The position numbers and the translations under genes are program-made. Below are positions 2,640 through 31,662 of a DNA stretch of 64,000 bases, piece by piece. The stretch is taken from assembly GCF_014701235.1 (NCBI RefSeq), contig NZ_AP022873.1, positions 1,922,001-1,986,000 of the forward strand. Reading direction: 5' to 3'. The DNA is from Dissulfurispira thermophila. Lineage in GTDB: Bacteria > Nitrospirota > Thermodesulfovibrionia > Thermodesulfovibrionales > Dissulfurispiraceae. Position 1 is the first letter of the stretch, and every line of letters starts with the position of its first letter. The notes below the pieces were generated by a model. The model searched no databases and was not told the origin of the DNA. It was given only the letters and a program-made list of their open reading frames with translations.

Positions 2640-3186
2640 TGTATATTTTTTCTATACATCAAAAAACGCCTTAATTTATACTTTAAATCAGCAAAACTTG
2701 TCAAGCATTCAGCACCACTTCACCACTTCACCACTTCACCCCTAAAGCCCACCGCCTAAAGCCTATTTACCCTCTCCCCTCAACCTACCCCTCTCCCCAA
2801 ACAAAAGGGAGAGGGGATTTTTTAATTTTGTGAAACCCTATGCACTTGAACAAACACTTTTTAAAGACTTTGAGCAGTGTCTGTCATCTAAAATCAGGCT
2901 ACCGCCTTCACCCCTTCACCAATTTTTAATAATATAGCATTAGTTTGTTTTATAATCCACATAAATCTAAATGTCAAATTAAAAATATTAAATTGCTTAT
3001 AAAAATATCATTGTTTTTATGCCTTGAGGGATAAAGTCTTTGAACTTTTTGATTTTTTTATTTAAAAGGCAGAGATACTTTGTTAAAAGAATATTAGATC
3101 GAACAAGCATATACTGTCGTCTGGAAGACATCCAGTTGGTAAAGAGAAAAGTTGTTTTTCTTGTTGCAGTTTAAGTAAAATCTCAC
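2640..3186. other. Repeat-rich intergenic region between nuoA and trpC
   Basis: No gene is seen here. It holds three units of ACTTCACC near 2716-2741, a terminator-like hairpin at 2788-2826 (CCCCTCTCCC pairing with GGGAGAGGGG, then a T-rich run), a 55-nt segment at 2843-2897 that recurs at 8590-8645, and two more TTCACC units near 2903-2920. The hairpin plus the following TTTTGTGAAACCCTAT recurs in inverse orientation at 28375-28412. The region therefore collects dispersed repeats. A promoter for the nuo operon and for trpC should lie here but none is clear. Confidence 0.6.
2788..2826 (+). repeat. GC-rich hairpin repeat, terminator-like
   Basis: Perfect 10-bp stem (CCCCTCTCCC / GGGAGAGGGG) with a short A-rich loop and a following T-rich run. 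No plus-strand gene lies upstream, and an inverted copy occurs at 28375-28412, so it is better described as a dispersed repeat than as a dedicated terminator. Confidence 0.6.
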
Positions 3187-7143: not shown

Positions 7144-7159
7144 AACCCCTTCACCAAAT

Positions 7160-7275
7160 AGGCTTTAGGCTGAAGGCTGAAGATAAAATCCAATCTTGAA
7201 TTTTAAATCTTAAATCTTAAACTTTAAACCTTCAACCTTGAATCGCCGAAGGCGTTATCCCCTTCACCCCTTCAC
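7160..7275. repeat. 116-bp direct repeat, copy 1
   Basis: This segment matches 8660-8775 with only two visible differences, exactly 1500 bp apart. It is AT-rich with short internal iterations (CTTAAATCTTAAA, CTTTAAACCTTCAACC), a small palindrome around CGCCGAAGGCG, and ends in TTCACCCC units. The two copies bracket the two NosL-like genes. Confidence 0.9.
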
Positions 7276-7283
7276 ATCTTCAC

Positions 7284-7793
7284 CTATTCTTGCATTACAG
7301 ATGCAATGTCTTTAAATTTAATGATCCTATCGCCTTTATGGTCTTTTAAAAACACCTTTGCATCATCCTCTGCTTCAAATGGTATGAATTCCTTGCCCAT
7401 TGGTCCGTAAATCGAGCTACCAATAACATAAAAAGCCTTTTTGCCATCAATATCTTTCAGACTATAATAATCCTTCACATAGATTGCCTCTATATCTTTA
7501 ATGTCTTTTGCTGGATTATATCTTTTCATATTCAAATAGTACTTCATCATATCCTTAACTCCATCAAACACCGCATAAGTGCCATCTGCAAATATAATCT
7601 GTGCTGTCCAATCTGGATATTTCGACACAAACATACCACATACAGGACACTTATCCTTTGAAGAAGGCTTTATAGGCTTTTTCTCACCAGCAATACTTAC
7701 TGATACAAAGGCTATCAAAAGACAAGCCAAGGCTAAGCCTAAGCCCATCCTCTCTTTTCTGTGAACTGTGGACTGTGGACTGTGGACTCTCAT
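7284..7793 (-). CDS. NosL-like copper-binding protein
   Basis: NosL proteins bind Cu(I) and help metallate copper enzymes such as nitrous oxide reductase. The 169-residue product has an N-terminal membrane or signal segment (about residues 17-35) and the NosL motif DKCPVCGMFV near residue 49. The first 16 codons derive from a short CAGTCCA repeat, so translation may really begin at the internal ATG encoding MGLGLAL. It lies 11 bp downstream of a second NosL-like gene. No nosZ is in the window, so the copper client is not known. Confidence 0.85.
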   Translation of the reverse strand: MRVHSPQSTVHRKERMGLGLALACLLIAFVSVSIAGEKKPIKPSSKDKCPVCGMFVSKYPDWTAQIIFADGTYAVFDGVKDMMKYYLNMKRYNPAKDIKDIEAIYVKDYYSLKDIDGKKAFYVIGSSIYGPMGKEFIPFEAEDDAKVFLKDHKGDRIIKFKDIASVMQE

Positions 7794-8404: not shown

Positions 8405-8779
8405 CTAAAACCTCCTTAAACGCCTATGGCGAACTAAAAACAGCTCAATTAAGTAATCAATTAGATGACAGATGCCGCGAAAAGGCTTTAAACTCCGTAC
8501 TTGTAACTACATCTATCTTGAATCCGTCACCACCTATTAGCGGATACTTATGATACTTATTGAGTAATACATTTATAGTCCCCTCATATATGCTTGAACC
8601 AACACTTTTAAAAGACTTTGAGCAGTGTCTGTCATCTAAAATCAGCTCAATTAGGCTGAAGGCTATAGGCTGAAGGCTGAAGATAAAATCCAATCTTGAA
8701 TTTTAAATCTTAAATCTTAAACTTTAAACCTTCAACCTTGAATCGCCGAAGGTGTTATCCCCTTCACCCCTTCACCACT
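8405..8779. other. Intergenic repeat region with possible coding debris
   Basis: This gap holds the second copy of the 116-bp repeat (8660-8775), the second copy of the 55-nt repeat (8590-8645, also at 2843-2897) and TTCACC units at 8757-8792. A minus-strand open frame at 8457-8693 contains a protein-like stretch (NVLLNKYHKYPLIGGDGFK) but starts and ends in repeat DNA; I read it as a gene remnant at most. Confidence 0.5.
8660..8775. repeat. 116-bp direct repeat, copy 2
   Basis: Partner of 7160-7275, differing at two visible positions (GGCTATAGG for GGCTTTAGG, GGTGTT for GGCGTT) and continuing into TTCACC octamer units. Confidence 0.9.
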
Positions 8780-9199
8780 TCACCCCTTCACCACCTTTAA
8801 TTTAACAGCTTTTTTACCGTATCTTTCAAAGTGCAAATAAAGCGTAAACTCAAAACCATCCTTAATTTCATCAGGCATTTTAAAAATCATTATATGCATG
8901 CCCCCGGGAATCATCTCTATTTTATCATGAGATGGTATTTTAATACCTTTGACCTTTACCATCTTACCATCTTTTACATCATGAAGTTCAACAACACTGC
9001 CGTCTATATCTGTGCTTGCACCTACAAGCATATCTCTTCCTCCGTTATTACTTATCCTCATAAAAACAGAAACCACACCGTGCATAATAGGAGATGCCAC
9101 AGTAACAGCATCGCTTATTTGTATATCAGGCGGTTTTTGCACACAGTTAGCAACAGTCACAGCCATGATAATTAACAAAATCCTTAATCTCAAAAACAC
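8780..9199 (-). CDS. Periplasmic copper chaperone, PCuAC family
   Basis: PCuAC proteins carry Cu(I) in the periplasm, often to cytochrome oxidase. The 139-residue protein begins with a hydrophobic signal that may be a lipoprotein signal (VANCVQ). The family's copper ligands are visible: His in VELHDVKDGKM, the following Met, then GGMHIMIF. The C-terminus (KLKVVKG) reads into a TTCACC repeat. It is the most upstream gene of the copper cluster, separated from the NosL genes by a repeat region, so it may be transcribed separately. Confidence 0.88.
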   Translation of the reverse strand: MFLRLRILLIIMAVTVANCVQKPPDIQISDAVTVASPIMHGVVSVFMRISNNGGRDMLVGASTDIDGSVVELHDVKDGKMVKVKGIKIPSHDKIEMIPGGMHIMIFKMPDEIKDGFEFTLYLHFERYGKKAVKLKVVKG

Positions 9200-22900: not shown

Positions 22901-23106
22901 CGATCGCACTTGAATGGGCAATTGGCCTTGAGAGATTGTCTCCCCTTGCAGTGGTTGCCATTGGCGGGCTGATGGTATCAACATTTCTGACCCTCGTCTA
23001 TGTGCCAATACTTTACAGTCTGTTTGATGAACTAAAGGAAAGGGCGAAGAGGTATGGAGCTATATTAACAAAAATTATTCATTCAAGGAGTACTATTCAT
23101 GAGTAA
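19966..23106 (+). CDS. RND multidrug/efflux transporter (HAE1/AcrB class)
   Basis: A 1046-residue RND pump with twelve predicted transmembrane segments and two large periplasmic loops. The proton-relay aspartate pair in [16 protein letters not shown] places it in the drug-type HAE class, not the heavy-metal CusA class, despite the arsenic context. It starts [18 protein letters not shown] as usual. The last 15 residues ([15 protein letters not shown]) do not belong to the family: they match, in the same frame, the C-terminus of the four-helix-bundle protein at 25836-26204. The gene end has thus been rebuilt from a remnant of that cassette. Confidence 0.93.
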
Positions 23107-23122
23107 ACTCTTCACCACTTCA
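23056..23122 (+). repeat. 67-bp repeat spanning pump stop and arsR start
   Basis: Matches 26154-26220 with four visible differences. Both copies contain the 3' end of a reading frame (LTK-IHSR--HE), an AAGGAG site, the palindrome ACTCATGAGT or its variant, the start codon and the first TTCACC units. Confidence 0.9.
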
Positions 23123-23503
23123 TCAATTCACCAATTAACCAATTTATTCCATGCCCTCTCTGACGAGACAAGGCTCAGGATATTAAAACTCCTTGAGCAT
23201 GGAGAGCTATGCGTATGTGACATTGTTGCAGCACTTGATATGATTCAGCCAAAGGTCTCTTTTCATCTTAGCATACTAAAAAATGCAGGGTTGATTAAAG
23301 ACAGAAAACAGGGTAAGTGGATTCACTACAGTATTGATGACTCTGATATGTTTAAGAGGTTTTTAGTCCTCTCTGTGCTTGAAAAGATTTCTGAAAGCGA
23401 AGTAAAAGAAGATAAAAAAAGGCTGGATAAATTTCTGAAAAACAAAGGTACTAAGGCAGAGGTTATTACAATTAAAAACAAAAACAGATGTTGCGGGAGG
23501 TAA
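23099..23503 (+). CDS. arsR: ArsR-family arsenite-responsive repressor
   Basis: A 134-residue winged-helix repressor. [15 protein letters not shown] starts the fold and [11 protein letters not shown] holds the Cys pair that binds As(III) in classic ArsR proteins; [25 protein letters not shown] is the recognition region. The C-terminus ends NRCCGR with an additional Cys pair. The first ten residues ([10 protein letters not shown]) are encoded by a repeat that also starts arsA. It overlaps the pump gene by 8 bp. It probably represses its own region via the operator at 15181-15206. Confidence 0.94.
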
Positions 23504-25455: not shown

Positions 25456-25476
25456 TAAAGGAGGAGGGAATTGGAC

Positions 25477-25815
25477 ATGAAAATTGAAATCTATGACCCG
25501 GCAATGTGCTGCTCATCAGGACTTTGCGGGCCAAGCATCGACCCCGTCCTGGTGAAAATGAATGATGCTGTGATGGCATTAAAGAAACAGGGGGTTCATG
25601 TTGAAAGGTTTAACCTTGCCCAGCAGCCGAAGGCATTTATGGAAAATCCTGAAGTAAAATCATTGCTCACAAAAAATGGAAAAAAGATACTGCCCATTAC
25701 AATCGTAAATGGCAAGGTCTTCAAGACAGGTGAATATCCGTCATATGAGGAATTGTGTCAGGCACTGGGTATTGAACCGCTGAAGGTAAAACCGATAAGT
25801 CTGGTTAATAGGTGA
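25477..25815 (+). CDS. arsD: ArsD arsenic metallochaperone
   Basis: ArsD passes As(III) to ArsA. The 112-residue product has the chaperone site MCCSSGLCGPSIDP with the three required cysteines near residues 10-17; the later vicinal Cys pairs of some ArsD proteins are absent. I choose ATG 25477 because GGAGGAGGG precedes it at normal distance (a TTG at 25471 also exists). The stop codon lies inside the first GGTGAAGG octamer of the repeat array that flanks the next gene. Confidence 0.94.
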   Translation: MKIEIYDPAMCCSSGLCGPSIDPVLVKMNDAVMALKKQGVHVERFNLAQQPKAFMENPEVKSLLTKNGKKILPITIVNGKVFKTGEYPSYEELCQALGIEPLKVKPISLVNR

Positions 25816-25838
25816 AGGGGTGAAGAGGTGAAGAGGTG
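25811..25838 (+). repeat. Left octamer array (GGTGAAGN) of the four-helix cassette
   Basis: Three and a half units of GGTGAAG(G/A) with period 8. It is the inverted counterpart of the CTTCACCN array at 26206-26240. It includes the arsD stop and supplies both a GAAGAGG ribosome binding site and the GTG start of the next gene. Confidence 0.9.
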
Positions 25839-26204
25839 GGTTATCAGAGTTTTAAAGAATTAAAGGTCTGGCAGGAAGCAAAGGCTTTAGCTGTTGATAT
25901 TTACAAATTAACTACTCATGGAAAATTTTTAAAGGATTTTGGACTAAAAGAGCAGTTACAGAGGGCATCAGTCTCTATTGCCTCTAATATTGCCGAGGGA
26001 TATGAGCGAAACAGTGATAAAGATTTTGTTAGATTTATTATGTTTGCAAAGGGTTCTATTGCTGAACTACGAACACAATTAGAAATAGCAAAAGAAATCG
26101 GGTATATAGAAGAAACTATCTCTGATGAGCTTGAAAGTCGTTGTAACAAGATTGGAGCTATGTTAACAAAACTTATTCATTCAAGGAGGACTACTCATGA
26201 GTAA
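25836..26204 (+). CDS. Four-helix-bundle protein (S23/rRNA intervening-sequence protein family)
   Basis: A 122-residue member of the family first seen in ORFs of 23S rRNA intervening sequences: FKELKVWQEAKALAVDIYKLT, GLKEQLQRASVSIASNIAEGYER, FIMFAKGSIAELRTQLEIAKEIG. Family members form pentameric helical bundles; a molecular function is generally unknown, though a relative (Avd) works in diversity-generating retroelements. Here the gene starts with GTG inside one octamer array and ends just before the inverted array, a layout like a small mobile cassette, placed between arsD and arsA where it has no evident arsenic role. Confidence 0.9.
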   Translation: MGYQSFKELKVWQEAKALAVDIYKLTTHGKFLKDFGLKEQLQRASVSIASNIAEGYERNSDKDFVRFIMFAKGSIAELRTQLEIAKEIGYIEETISDELESRCNKIGAMLTKLIHSRRTTHE

Positions 26205-28053
26205 ACTCTTCACCACTTCACCACTTCACCCATTCACCCAATATATATTCTTTTCAGGCAAGGGTGGGGTTGGAAAAACTACAATGGCATGCGCCACTGC
26301 TATCCATCATGCTACAGAAGGCAAAAAGACTTTGATTGTAACAACTGACCCTGCTTCTAATCTTGCGGATGTCTTTGAACAGGAAATAGGACATAAGATA
26401 ACTCCGATTAAGGGGATAGATAACCTTTCTGCCATGGAGATAGACCCTGACGAGGCAACGAGGGAATATAAAGAAAAAATAATAGCTCCTTTCAGAGAGA
26501 TTATGCCCGATGATGTTATCGCATCTATTGACGAGCAGTTAAGCGGACCATGCACAACAGAGATGGCAGCCTTTGACCGTTTCATAGACTTTATGGAAGG
26601 TGATGAATACGATGTTATTGTATTTGACACCGCTCCAACAGGACACACAATAAGACTCCTTGAACTGCCTGTGGATTGGTCAAAACATATTGAAGAATCC
26701 GCAAAGGGAAGCGGACAGACATGTCTTGGGCCTGTGCAGACGATTCAGGAATCAAAGGATAAATACGACAGGGCAACAGCGCTCCTTAAAAACCCTGACA
26801 GAACAAGATTTATATTCGTTATGAGACCTGAAGAACTCTCGCTTTATGAAACATTAAGGGCTTCAAAAGAGCTTGAAAGCATAGGCATAAAATCAGGAGA
26901 GATTATCATAAATGGTATCCTGCCCGAGGAGGTCTGCGAGATTGATTTTTTCAAAAAGAAATATGAATCACAGCAAAAGGTGATAAAAGAGATCGAAAGA
27001 ATTATAGATAAACCAAAGCGGTATATGCTTTTAAGAAACAGCGAGGTTAAAGGTATTAATGCGCTTAAGGATGTTGCACAGGAACTCTTCACCGCCTCAC
27101 CCCTTCGCCCCCTCACCCATTCACCCATTCACCCCTTCACCGCTTCACCGCTTCACCCCTTCACCCCTTCACCCATAAACATAAACAGACTATGGCTTCC
27201 TCAAAACAAACGGACAAAGGCTTTATTCTTCACGGGTAAAGGCGGGGTGGGCAAGACAACTGTATCATGTCTTGCAGCACTTTATACAGCACAAAAAGGC
27301 TTCAGGACACTCCTTGTAACTACCGACCCTGCGGCTCATATAGGAGAAGTGCTGGATGTGAAAGTAGGAAGCTCCCCTGTAAAAGTTGCTGAAAACCTCT
27401 ATGCCGTGATGGTGGATCAGGAGACAGCATTCAAAGAATACAAAGAGAGGGTTTTAAACGATGCCCGTGGCAAATATTCTGAAGACATGATTGCCGCCAT
27501 GGAGGAAGAACTGAATTCTCCATGCACAGAAGAGATGGCTGCCTTTGATAAATTCATTCAGTTTATTGAGGGGAAGGATTATGAGGTTATAGTCTTTGAT
27601 ACAGCGCCAACAGGCCATACACTAAGACTTTTATCGCTTCCTTTTGATTATGCAAAGCAGGTGGAGATGATGGTCTCTTCTCAGGAGGCATCAAAGGCAA
27701 GAGAGGAAACTCAGGACAGATTCAGGGAGATAATCAATATCTTAAAGGATAAAGACCGCACAGTCTTCAGCCTTGTTTTATATCCTGAATCCACGCCAAT
27801 TCTTGAATCATACAGGGCAATGCTTGATTTAAAAGACGCTGGCATAGAGACACAGCTTGTTGTTGCTAATCTCATACTGCCTGAAGAGGTCTGCATAAAT
27901 GACTTTTTTAAAAGCAGGCGCGCTATGCAGATGCGTTATCTAAGGGAGATTAACGACAGGTTCAATCTTCCCGTCCTTCAGATTCCGATGATGCAGGATG
28001 AGATAAGGGGGCTTGTCTCATTAAAGAATGCGCTACAAGCATTGAACAGTTGA
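26197..28053 (+). CDS. arsA: ArsA arsenite-translocating ATPase (two ATPase domains)
   Basis: ArsA energises arsenite export. The 618-residue protein has two homologous halves, each with a P-loop FSGKGGVGKTT / FTGKGGVGKTT and the switch DTAPTGHT. The As-binding cysteines are present: SGPCTTEMAAFD and SGQTCLGPVQ in the first half, NSPCTEEMAAFD in the second. Two parts derive from octamer repeats: the N-terminus ([15 protein letters not shown]) and a linker of about 30 residues (LFTASPLRPLTHSPIHPFTA and on), longer and more Pro-rich than usual. The AAGGAGG site and start codon lie in the repeat shared with arsR. Confidence 0.95.
   Translation: MSKLFTTSPLHPFTQYIFFSGKGGVGKTTMACATAIHHATEGKKTLIVTTDPASNLADVFEQEIGHKITPIKGIDNLSAMEIDPDEATREYKEKIIAPFREIMPDDVIASIDEQLSGPCTTEMAAFDRFIDFMEGDEYDVIVFDTAPTGHTIRLLELPVDWSKHIEESAKGSGQTCLGPVQTIQESKDKYDRATALLKNPDRTRFIFVMRPEELSLYETLRASKELESIGIKSGEIIINGILPEEVCEIDFFKKKYESQQKVIKEIERIIDKPKRYMLLRNSEVKGINALKDVAQELFTASPLRPLTHSPIHPFTASPLHPFTPSPININRLWLPQNKRTKALFFTGKGGVGKTTVSCLAALYTAQKGFRTLLVTTDPAAHIGEVLDVKVGSSPVKVAENLYAVMVDQETAFKEYKERVLNDARGKYSEDMIAAMEEELNSPCTEEMAAFDKFIQFIEGKDYEVIVFDTAPTGHTLRLLSLPFDYAKQVEMMVSSQEASKAREETQDRFREIINILKDKDRTVFSLVLYPESTPILESYRAMLDLKDAGIETQLVVANLILPEEVCINDFFKSRRAMQMRYLREINDRFNLPVLQIPMMQDEIRGLVSLKNALQALNS
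26206..26240 (+). repeat. Right octamer array (CTTCACCN) of the four-helix cassette
   Basis: Four units of CTTCACC(A/C) or ATTCACCC with period 8, inverted relative to the array at 25811. It is translated as the N-terminus of ArsA (FTTSPLHPFT). Confidence 0.9.
27085..27175 (+). repeat. Octamer array inside the arsA linker
   Basis: About eleven period-8 units of TTCACC(C/G)(C/A), some diverged (CTCACCCC, TTCGCCCC), open in the arsA frame. It codes for a Pro/Thr/His-rich linker between the two ATPase domains. Confidence 0.9.
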
Positions 28054-28071: not shown

Positions 28072-28335
28072 ATGCTTAAGCTCATCATTGAGGCATCAAA
28101 GAAGGATGAAGAACTTAGCAGATTGCTTGAGAGGGCAAAGGAATATGCAGAGGTCTACCTCCTTGCAAAAAGGCGCCAGAAGGGTTGTGATGGCATGGGT
28201 GAGATGGCTTCACTCAAGGATGAGTTCAAGGGTATCTTTGATGAATTGCTCGCATATTGTAAAAGTAAGGGTTATATCAAGGACAATCTATCATATGATA
28301 TTGATGTGGTCGCAGATGAAGTGGTGAAGTGGTGA
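28072..28335 (+). CDS. Small protein of unknown function in the ars operon
   Basis: An 87-residue, mostly helical, charged protein (KKDEELSRLLERAKEYAEVYLL). No family recognised and no Cys pair beyond two single cysteines. It follows arsA by 18 bp on the same strand. Its last codons (EVVKW) and stop are formed by GGTGAAGT octamers, so the original C-terminus may have been different. Confidence 0.6.
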   Translation: MLKLIIEASKKDEELSRLLERAKEYAEVYLLAKRRQKGCDGMGEMASLKDEFKGIFDELLAYCKSKGYIKDNLSYDIDVVADEVVKW

Positions 28336-30906: not shown

Positions 30907-31662
30907 ATGCATCAGGAACTTCTTGAGATAAGGCATCTTAAATACAGGGTAGATGGAAGAGATCTCATAAATGACCTCTCCATGACAATCCATGCCGGGG
31001 ATGTCCATGCCCTTTTAGGCACAAACGGCACAGGCAAGAGCACCCTTGCGTATCTGATAATGGGATGCGAGGGGTACAGATCTTGCTCAGGAGAGATAAT
31101 CTTTGAAGGGAAAATTATCAATGACCTTCCAATCCATGAGAGGGCAAGGCTCGGTATTACAATGGCATGGCAGGAGCCGGTTAGATTTGAGGGAATATCC
31201 GTTTCAGATTACCTTTCATTGAAAAACCGATTGGCCTCTTCACCTCTTCACCCATTCACCCCTTCACCAGCCTACTACCTTGAAATGGCAGGACTTAATC
31301 CAGAACTCTATCTTCACAGAATGGTTGATAAATCCTTAAGCGGCGGAGAGAGAAAAAGGATTGAGCTTGCCTCCATATTAGCTCTCTCGCCAAAACTTGC
31401 AATCCTTGATGAGCCTGACTCAGGAATAGATATGCTCTCAACTCAGGATATAATTAATGTCATTAATGCCTTTAAAGAAAACGGCTCTTCTGTTTTGCTT
31501 ATAACGCATAGAGAGGAAATCGCCCTTATTGCTGACATGGCATCCCAGATATGCGGAGGGAAAATTGTATTTTCAGGTAGCCCTCATGATGTTGCGGAGT
31601 ATTACAAATCAAGACAATGCCTTGTTTGTAATGGAGAGGTGTGCAGGCAGAGGACTGATTAA
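30907..31662 (+). CDS. sufC: SufC-like Fe-S assembly ATPase
   Basis: SufC is the ATPase of the SUF iron-sulfur scaffold and partners with SufB/SufD. Seen: Walker A LLGTNGTGKST, Q-loop AWQEPV, signature KSLSGGERKRIELAS, Walker B LAILDEPDSGID and His in LITHREE. An octamer array (31236-31268) codes for the in-frame insertion ASSPLHPFTPSPAYY before the signature motif, in the helical domain. A Cys-rich C-terminus (CLVCNGEVC) is unusual. Start at ATG 30907 or TTG 30892. Its SufBD partner now lies 11.9 kb away at 43525, beyond a defence island. Confidence 0.9.
   Translation: MHQELLEIRHLKYRVDGRDLINDLSMTIHAGDVHALLGTNGTGKSTLAYLIMGCEGYRSCSGEIIFEGKIINDLPIHERARLGITMAWQEPVRFEGISVSDYLSLKNRLASSPLHPFTPSPAYYLEMAGLNPELYLHRMVDKSLSGGERKRIELASILALSPKLAILDEPDSGIDMLSTQDIINVINAFKENGSSVLLITHREEIALIADMASQICGGKIVFSGSPHDVAEYYKSRQCLVCNGEVCRQRTD
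31236..31268 (+). repeat. Octamer array inside sufC
   Basis: Four period-8 units (CTCTTCACC, TCTTCACC, CATTCACC, CCTTCACC) open in the sufC frame, coding for SSPLHPFTPS. Confidence 0.88.

Follow-up and report, generated by a model that had tools for sequence, protein, structure and literature searches.

An S23 gene between inverted tandem-repeat arms: a probable mobile unit in the ars operon of Dissulfurispira thermophila with counterparts in many phyla

How an S23/IVP gene came to stand between arsD and arsA, and why inverted arrays of one short word bracket it, is the question raised by a 64,000-bp stretch of the Dissulfurispira thermophila genome (positions 1922001-1986000 of the single 2.37-Mb contig NZ_AP022873.1), hereafter called the window. 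S23/IVP genes are widespread and functionally uncharacterised, and dispersed bacterial arrays of 6-9 bp units have no agreed origin; a tie between the two suggests what the gene may do and where the arrays may come from. It would also account for unusual peptides read in frame in housekeeping proteins, such as SPLHPFTPSP, and for the ends of the intervening sequences (IVSs) in rRNA genes. We consider it probable, at roughly 0.58, that the locus holds a mobile S23 unit whose tandem-repeat ends seed dispersed arrays, in an organisation resembling that of RAYTs and REPINs and without a recognised transposase. A tiny kind of mobile element, so far overlooked, may thus explain much of the short repeat DNA in bacterial genomes. 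In the open-licence literature of PubMed Central no paper was found that, outside rRNA, connects S23/IVP genes with short-repeat arrays at their flanks. G and L numbers denote the genomes and loci compared, G000 being the genome under study.

The S23 gene encodes a four-helix-bundle protein that lies above the curated threshold in profile searches, matching PF05635 with 133.1 bits (cut-off 33.8) and TIGR02436 with 128 bits (cut-off 24). It sits between arsD and arsA, bracketed by inverted GGTGAAGN and CTTCACCN arrays (Table 1), an arrangement that the first-pass annotation had described and that the PF05635 match and the arrays called by Tandem Repeats Finder confirm. Each arm evidently repeats a family-specific word, here GGTGAANN, in a short tandem array, and the gene nearly fills the space between the arms, the whole unit measuring ~430 bp. 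When each left flank was compared by script with the reverse complement of the right flank, the window element scored 23.0 in inverted and 7.5 in direct orientation, which makes the S23 gene the top inverted flank match among 62 non-overlapping open reading frames (ORFs) of the window (runner-up 13.5).

The insert reaches into both host genes. The final codon and the stop codon of arsD (AGG TGA, 25810-25815) come from the left arm, and the GTG start of the S23 gene is placed in the degenerate last unit of the same arm. On the other side, an AGGAGG motif and an ATG in the S23 tail serve arsA as ribosome-binding site and start codon; a similar AGGAGG...ATG recurs in two related loci (L039 and L040), and AAGGAG...ATG in an internally deleted copy of the element upstream. 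The ATG (26197-26199) overlaps the S23 stop codon and lies ~9 bp 5' of the right array, not within it as had been supposed, and the N-terminus of ArsA is translated right arm. With the left arm ending arsD and the S23 tail starting arsA, both neighbouring genes take new borders from the insert, and sites in operons would be tolerated because the left arm brings an upstream stop codon and the S23 tail a ribosome-binding site and a start codon.

Table 1. Features of the window that bear on the S23 element and its repeat word (window coordinates)
Feature	Position	Strand	Details
S23/IVP four-helix-bundle gene	25836..26204	+	122 amino acids; PF05635, TIGR02436
arsD, host gene 5' of the insert	25471..25815	+	PF06953
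arsA, host gene 3' of the insert, beginning within the element	26197..28053	+	PF02374
Left arm, GGTGAAG-type array	25810..25838	+	8-bp unit AGGTGAAG, 3.6 copies (Tandem Repeats Finder)
Right arm, CTTCACCN array (CTTCACC units), inverse of left arm	26208..26238	+	CTTCACCA, 3.9 copies (Tandem Repeats Finder)
AGGAGG and ATG within the S23 3' end, ATG overlapping the S23 stop TAA	26184..26199	+	sequence
Internally deleted copy of the element	23055..23149	+	S23 3' end and right arm, 88.8% identity over 98 bp
Solo array, read in frame within the linker that joins the two halves of ArsA	27087..27174	+	11 copies (Tandem Repeats Finder)
Solo array, in frame within an ABC-ATPase gene	31238..31268	+	ASSPLHPFTPSP (Tandem Repeats Finder)
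Solo array in the 3'-terminal part of a small ORF (28072-28335), giving its stop codon	28317..28336	-	repeat calls, ORF list
Composite dispersed repeat: AGGCTGA array, AATCTTGAATTT array, GAATCGCC hairpin, CTTCACC array	8652..8797	+	second copy ~7156-7284
Solo CACCACTT array	2713..2740	+	Tandem Repeats Finder
Solo two-unit CTTCACC array	2905..2920	+	pattern search, Tandem Repeats Finder

Inverted arms turned out to be a general property of S23 genes. All seven S23 places of the D. thermophila genome have short-repeat flanks, those of L001, L002 and L007 as judged by eye, with a low script score or none on account of a frame that enters the right arm or of a truncated copy. S23 genes without arrays, and arrays unlinked to them, had been named in advance as the outcome that would speak against the cassette; with seven of seven places flanked, this was not what the genome contained. 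The expectation that octamer arrays border other S23 genes held as far as flanking short repeats are concerned and failed for the octamer itself, since five different words are in use. In the phylum sample, 77 of 148 genomes possess S23/IVP genes. S23 flanks read directly in relatives again show short repeats, the words being many and different and the right side inverted with respect to the left.

The flank score puts this on a quantitative footing. In the phylum set, 90 of 92 elements were scored (L079 and L081 were dropped owing to a fused frame and a contig edge), and the median inverted score was 16.75 for an element's own pair of flanks versus 7.5 for pairs combined across elements; 55/90 elements reached the 99th and 77/90 the 95th percentile of the cross pairs. 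The observed mean was attained by 0 of 10000 permutations and the 99th percentile by 0 of 342 pseudo-elements placed in the same loci. A second set, obtained from one scan of named genomes (80 loci, 84 elements; L136, L162, L166 and L205 dropped), spans Nitrospirae, Planctomycetota, Bacteroidota, Desulfobulbaceae, relatives of Verrucomicrobia, Gammaproteobacteria and others, and includes four repeat genomes of the first set (L129, L130, L135 and L138). Here 67/84 elements lay at or above the 95th and 31/84 at or above the 99th percentile, the corresponding counts for permutations and pseudo-elements being 0/10000 and 2/754. Across many phyla, 137 of 170 S23 genes scored at least 12 and 105 at least 15, versus 46 and 24 of 714 other genes from the loci concerned. 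Of eight S23 genes on plasmids of cultured cyanobacteria, six had inverted arms, one had direct arms and one had none, so that metagenome assembly is not the cause of the arms. The S23 gene of a Pseudanabaena plasmid (L255) stands between two long arrays in direct orientation (AAAAGCT/AAAAGCC units).

Chance, or slippage of the ordinary kind at hot spots near small genes, would be in keeping with the rapid change of copy number seen between L039 and L040. This explanation is countered by the cross-element, pseudo-element and other-gene controls, and variable spacer bases in otherwise fixed units (dinucleotides CC 37, AC 22, TC 18, AA 13, CA 11, GC 10, TA 9, GA 3 and CT 1) are unlike simple slippage, though the fixed core is partly a product of the search, the arrays having been found by their core. 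We therefore give it next to no credence.

Among the 137 armed elements the best left-arm period was 7 bp in 68, 8 bp in 41, 9 bp in 12 and 14 bp in 9, and the arms lie close to the gene, with median distances of 27 bases on the start-codon side and 8 on the stop-codon side. Such positions would suit binding sites of a translational or transcriptional regulator, with S23 as an ordinary, perhaps autoregulated host gene, and a regulatory role has been argued for TAACTGA repeats of this sort (MacGregor 2015, PMC4679880). Duplicated units with unrelated flanks, arrays read in frame and the inverted match of both flanks would all be left unexplained, and we hold this explanation to be improbable. 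As an S23 word, TAACTGA itself formed no clear arm; two copies were seen beside a single S23 gene (L084).

The repeat word differs from element to element and agrees between the two arms of each. Over 170 elements, protein identity correlated with left-arm similarity (Mantel r 0.22, or 0.21 after removal of GC content; 0/2000 permutations), similar left arms being found in 84% of pairs above 70% identity, 46% at 60-70%, 18% at 50-60% and 5-7% below 45%. The nearest relatives of the window protein carry GGTGA-type words in Nitrospirae, Schekmanbacteria, Syntrophobacteraceae, Planctomycetota and a gammaproteobacterium, which points to words travelling with the S23 protein across phyla. A census of five words in 21 genomes, in which the arms of S23 itself are counted and part of the S23 flanks was read, was concordant for four of the five words: solo arrays of these were commonest in the genome or genomes with an S23 gene armed by that word. 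TTCACC gave 151 matches in G003, 117 in G000 and 54 in G019, the three genomes with a GGTGAA-armed S23 gene among the flanks read, followed by G001 (37), G012 (12), G002 and G005 (8 each) and at most 2 in the others. AGTGTCA was found 55 times in G005, 4 times in G000 and 0 times in the other 19 genomes; GTAACGC 10 times in G004, once in G006 and not in the other 19; and ATGGAA, predicted for G000, 27 times there and 0 times in the 20 others.

That the unit moves is indicated by copies in new surroundings. Two contigs of one Neomarinimicrobiota genome (L152 and L157) share 92.5% identity over 559 bp, two genomes of one genus (L074 and L087) 93.7% over 441 bp, and the two copies at L195 86% over 547 bp; in each pair the flanks are unrelated, and the similarity spans arm, gene and arm and ends there. 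Furthermore, relatives provide the unoccupied junction for which the first-pass annotation had proposed a search: arsD directly abuts arsA in six ArsD loci of the same order (L213, L216, L217, L220, L222 and L224), where ArsA begins M-T-x-Y-x-F-F-S-GKGGVGK, 20-27 bases separate the ArsD stop from the P-loop, and no array is present at the junction in any of the six. A GGTGAA-armed S23 gene follows arsD in the window, in G003 and in G161 (L214); in G019 a second small gene follows arsD and the S23 element precedes arsA. G180 (L215) has a different, truncated S23 type with AGGAGTC-type ends after arsD, which makes a second, independent insertion at the same junction. The remaining ArsD loci hold other intervening DNA or are cut by contig ends. 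Near-identical units with unrelated flanks, together with arsD-arsA junctions lacking the insert in relatives, thus argue that the arm-gene-arm unit is mobile. Along with the internally deleted copy they uphold the mobility that had been proposed for the cassette, and arms that match each other, travel with the protein and bound copies with unrelated flanks belong to the element.

The word also recurs elsewhere in the genome: in solo arrays, in small inverted pairs and in at least one internally deleted copy. The pattern TTCACC-NN-TTCACC matched 21 times in the window, versus 0.00 expected from 100 shuffles, and 117 times in the 2.37-Mb genome, versus 9 for a reversed control pattern. Exact arrays of at least two units number 10 in the window, of which 8 lie outside the element, somewhat fewer than the more than ten sites that had been reported for solo arrays. 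The deleted copy, which had escaped the first-pass annotation, lies between an RND gene and arsR, is preceded by a left-arm-like GGCGAAGAGGT, and supplies the RND gene with its C-terminal codons and arsR with its first ones. Inverted array pairs up to 100 bp apart are oriented from GGTGAA to TTCACC in eight of eight cases, as in the element. Among 56 exact arrays sampled from the genome many are solo and several are in frame within genes, including a carA-like gene, the ArsA linker and the ABC ATPase (gene names, except Pfam matches and carA, were read from peptides); the ArsA linkers of relatives, compared at the ArsD loci, have no array. Solo TTCACC arrays may be footprints of excised cassettes or, equally, copies of the arm alone, and the composite dispersed repeats carry several words side by side.

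Several points weigh against a mobile unit that seeds arrays. Thirty-three of the 170 S23 genes score below 12, and strong direct-orientation flank matches occur in 16 of the 90 phylum-set elements. The link between word and protein owes part of its strength to inheritance at the same locus. Element ends lie within arrays, so that target-site duplications are unreadable there, and no transposase gene was found inside the unit among ORFs or by Pfam profiles, a search that did not extend to relatives elsewhere in the genome. We know of no binding or transposition by S23 proteins. L001 and L002 lie at arrays of clustered regularly interspaced short palindromic repeats (CRISPR) and could be segmental duplications; as all three adjoin CRISPR arrays, a recent transposition of L001, L002 and L007 was rejected as proof of mobility. 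The carA array was likewise rejected as a clean insertion with an empty site, the linker of array-free relatives being of much the same length. Finally, two census results fit poorly: G001 has its 37 TTCACC matches, and two of its six S23 flanks, those that were read, carry other words; the census of CAGGAGTC failed, with 1 match in G016, whose S23 gene carries it, 6 in G005, 5 in G001 and few elsewhere.

These last two results, along with solo arrays and small inverted pairs that occur without S23, would be expected if the repeats were independent, spread by host replication or repair, and if array hairpins came first and S23 genes inserted into their loops, as IVSs do at the tips of rRNA hairpins. 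On the other hand, the arms accompany the S23 protein from phylum to phylum, copies with unrelated flanks have the same arms, so that the arms are part of the unit and not of the target, and the six empty arsD-arsA sites are free of arrays. Independent repeats are accordingly an unlikely explanation in our view.

The S23 family invites comparison with the IVSs of 23S rRNA genes. The IVS of Coxiella burnetii is described as containing an S23p gene, complementary ends and, before S23p, tandem GACAGAT heptamers of strain-variable copy number (PMC4990558). Like these IVSs, the window element has an S23/IVP gene between complementary ends, a length of ~430 nt and a suspected mobile or horizontal spread, and by flank score and RNA fold its ends are able to form one stem around the ORF. 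Unlike them, it resides in a protein operon and not within a 23S rRNA gene, its ends are tandem arrays of an element-specific word that is dispersed in the host genome, and its gene is under purifying selection rather than decaying. None of the 257 loci contained any of three large-subunit rRNA motifs. The dN/dS ratio (nonsynonymous to synonymous substitution rates) is 0.091 and 0.093 against two relatives (L039 and L040), and values of ~0.09 signify purifying selection and hence a protein that matters.

It might therefore be asked whether the element acts as RNA in the manner of an IVS, the arms pairing in the transcript, RNase III cutting the stem and the insert being excised from or insulated in the host mRNA, with S23 as passenger or RNA chaperone. 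The predicted RNA does have a stem closed by the arms around the gene (minimum free energy -118.1, z -3.71, equalled by 0 of 100 shuffles), and the S23p-containing Coxiella IVS has, besides its heptamers, a 28-bp terminal stem that is cut by RNase III (PMC4990558). Mismatches between the arms, however, are not enriched for G-U-compatible changes and even lean the opposite way (135 vs 187, p 0.004), and arm copy numbers differ widely, with ~5 left and ~11 right units in L039 and 10 and 4 in L040, as counted by eye. For lack of a G-U excess in this wobble test we prefer a role at the DNA level, that of inverted ends of one word around one protein, and judge an RNA-level element rather unlikely. 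The IVS parallel drawn in the first-pass annotation is thus retained for the inverted complementary ends and weakened as an RNA-level analogy. The copy-number difference may reflect fast array turnover, with transfer of the ars operon as a possible accompaniment; the S23 proteins of L039 and L040 are 98% identical, and their genomes are assigned to different families.

In organisation the element resembles REPIN/RAYT systems, in which a single gene is flanked by a short sequence that is dispersed as singlets and inverted doublets (PMC3116915). The likeness extends to the flanking word, which is dispersed in the same genome (the 117 matches) and includes inverted doublets of a single orientation; each genome may have its own word, four of the five words of the census agreeing with this and one not, and gene and word travel together. 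The differences are that S23, matched by PF05635 only, has the fold of a four-helix bundle and no known catalytic site whereas a RAYT is a Y1 tyrosine transposase, that the S23 word is a 6-10 bp tandem unit whereas the REPIN word is a palindromic 16-mer, and that near-identical S23 units occur at different sites. The element is best placed as a variant of the S23 IVS kind that is REPIN-like in organisation; its gene encoding no Y1 transposase, it is not a member of the REPIN/RAYT class. TAACTGA and other short tandem repeats dispersed between genes of Beggiatoaceae and cyanobacteria are described as of unexplained origin, and a repeat-binding protein acting as a mobile element has been suggested for TAACTGA (PMC4679880). 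They resemble the present arrays as dispersed 7-bp direct repeats, often set against start codons and sometimes in frame in proteins; S23 is mentioned nowhere in that article.

The S23 protein is related in sequence to PDB 2GSC and 2RLD, and the NCBIfam model of Avd, an accessory protein of diversity-generating retroelements (DGRs), matches, at scores under its cut-off of 80, the proteins of L043 (32 bits) and L045 (41 bits). PDB 4DWL and 2GSC are described as homologous (PMC10053308), and S23 belongs to the same superfamily as Avd, a likeness to DGRs that ends there: no DGR parts occur at the loci read, and the one RVT_1 match in the genome lies far from the window. As a presumed nucleic-acid binder related to Avd, the four-helix bundle might recognise its own word, whether in DNA or in single-stranded DNA, and, together with host enzymes of replication or repair, help ends that bear the word to be copied or to anneal elsewhere. 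For the copying route our guess is that single strands bearing the word anneal while DNA is replicated or repaired, and S23 would be the trans-acting partner of dispersed arrays, as RAYTs are to REPINs.

Extended beyond this locus, the proposal becomes tentative and carries less than even odds: S23/IVP proteins in general could be the trans-acting partners of the scattered short tandem repeats of bacteria, each recognising one 6-10 bp word and spreading solo arrays, inverted pairs and whole units without a dedicated transposase, for example by word-guided annealing at replication forks. The rRNA IVSs would then be an rRNA-resident branch, and the heptamer arrays of cyanobacteria and Beggiatoa would be footprints.

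Other routes and roles were considered and set aside. Retro-mobility by a DGR or group II reverse transcriptase (RT) was rejected, as the sole RVT_1 match looks CRISPR-associated besides its distance from the window. It is an 880-amino-acid protein (L258; 1489650-1490279 of the same genome and around) with a truncated, CRISPR-adjoining S23 copy ~17 kb away, and we take it to be a Cas6-RT-Cas1 fusion. A function in anti-phage defence was not borne out by PADLOC, which gave 0 families for three S23 proteins, nor carriage by phages by a tblastn search against 50,697 phage records, which returned no matches. In two genomes, related S23 units (L038 and L043) sit at an identical position within a methylase-like gene. 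Dual coding in L043 was dismissed: the host frame is open through S23, but it is also open in 254 of 5000 synonymous codon shuffles.

S23 units are often found in or beside CRISPR loci (L001, L002 and L007 in the D. thermophila genome, and L048, L054, L057, L251, L255 and L256), at CRISPR arrays, before putative cas2-like genes, between cas6 and cas4 or between cas10 and cmr3. The composite repeat of the window, further copies of which occur in L009, L019 and L248, joins three array words and a GAATCGCC...GGCG hairpin. Many small array hairpins, in L230, L232, L238, L240, L241 and L247, have a common outer flank outside the GGTGAA arms, for example CAGACTTTTATTT...AAATAAAAGTCTG, which probably represents the nested ends of a second repeat type.

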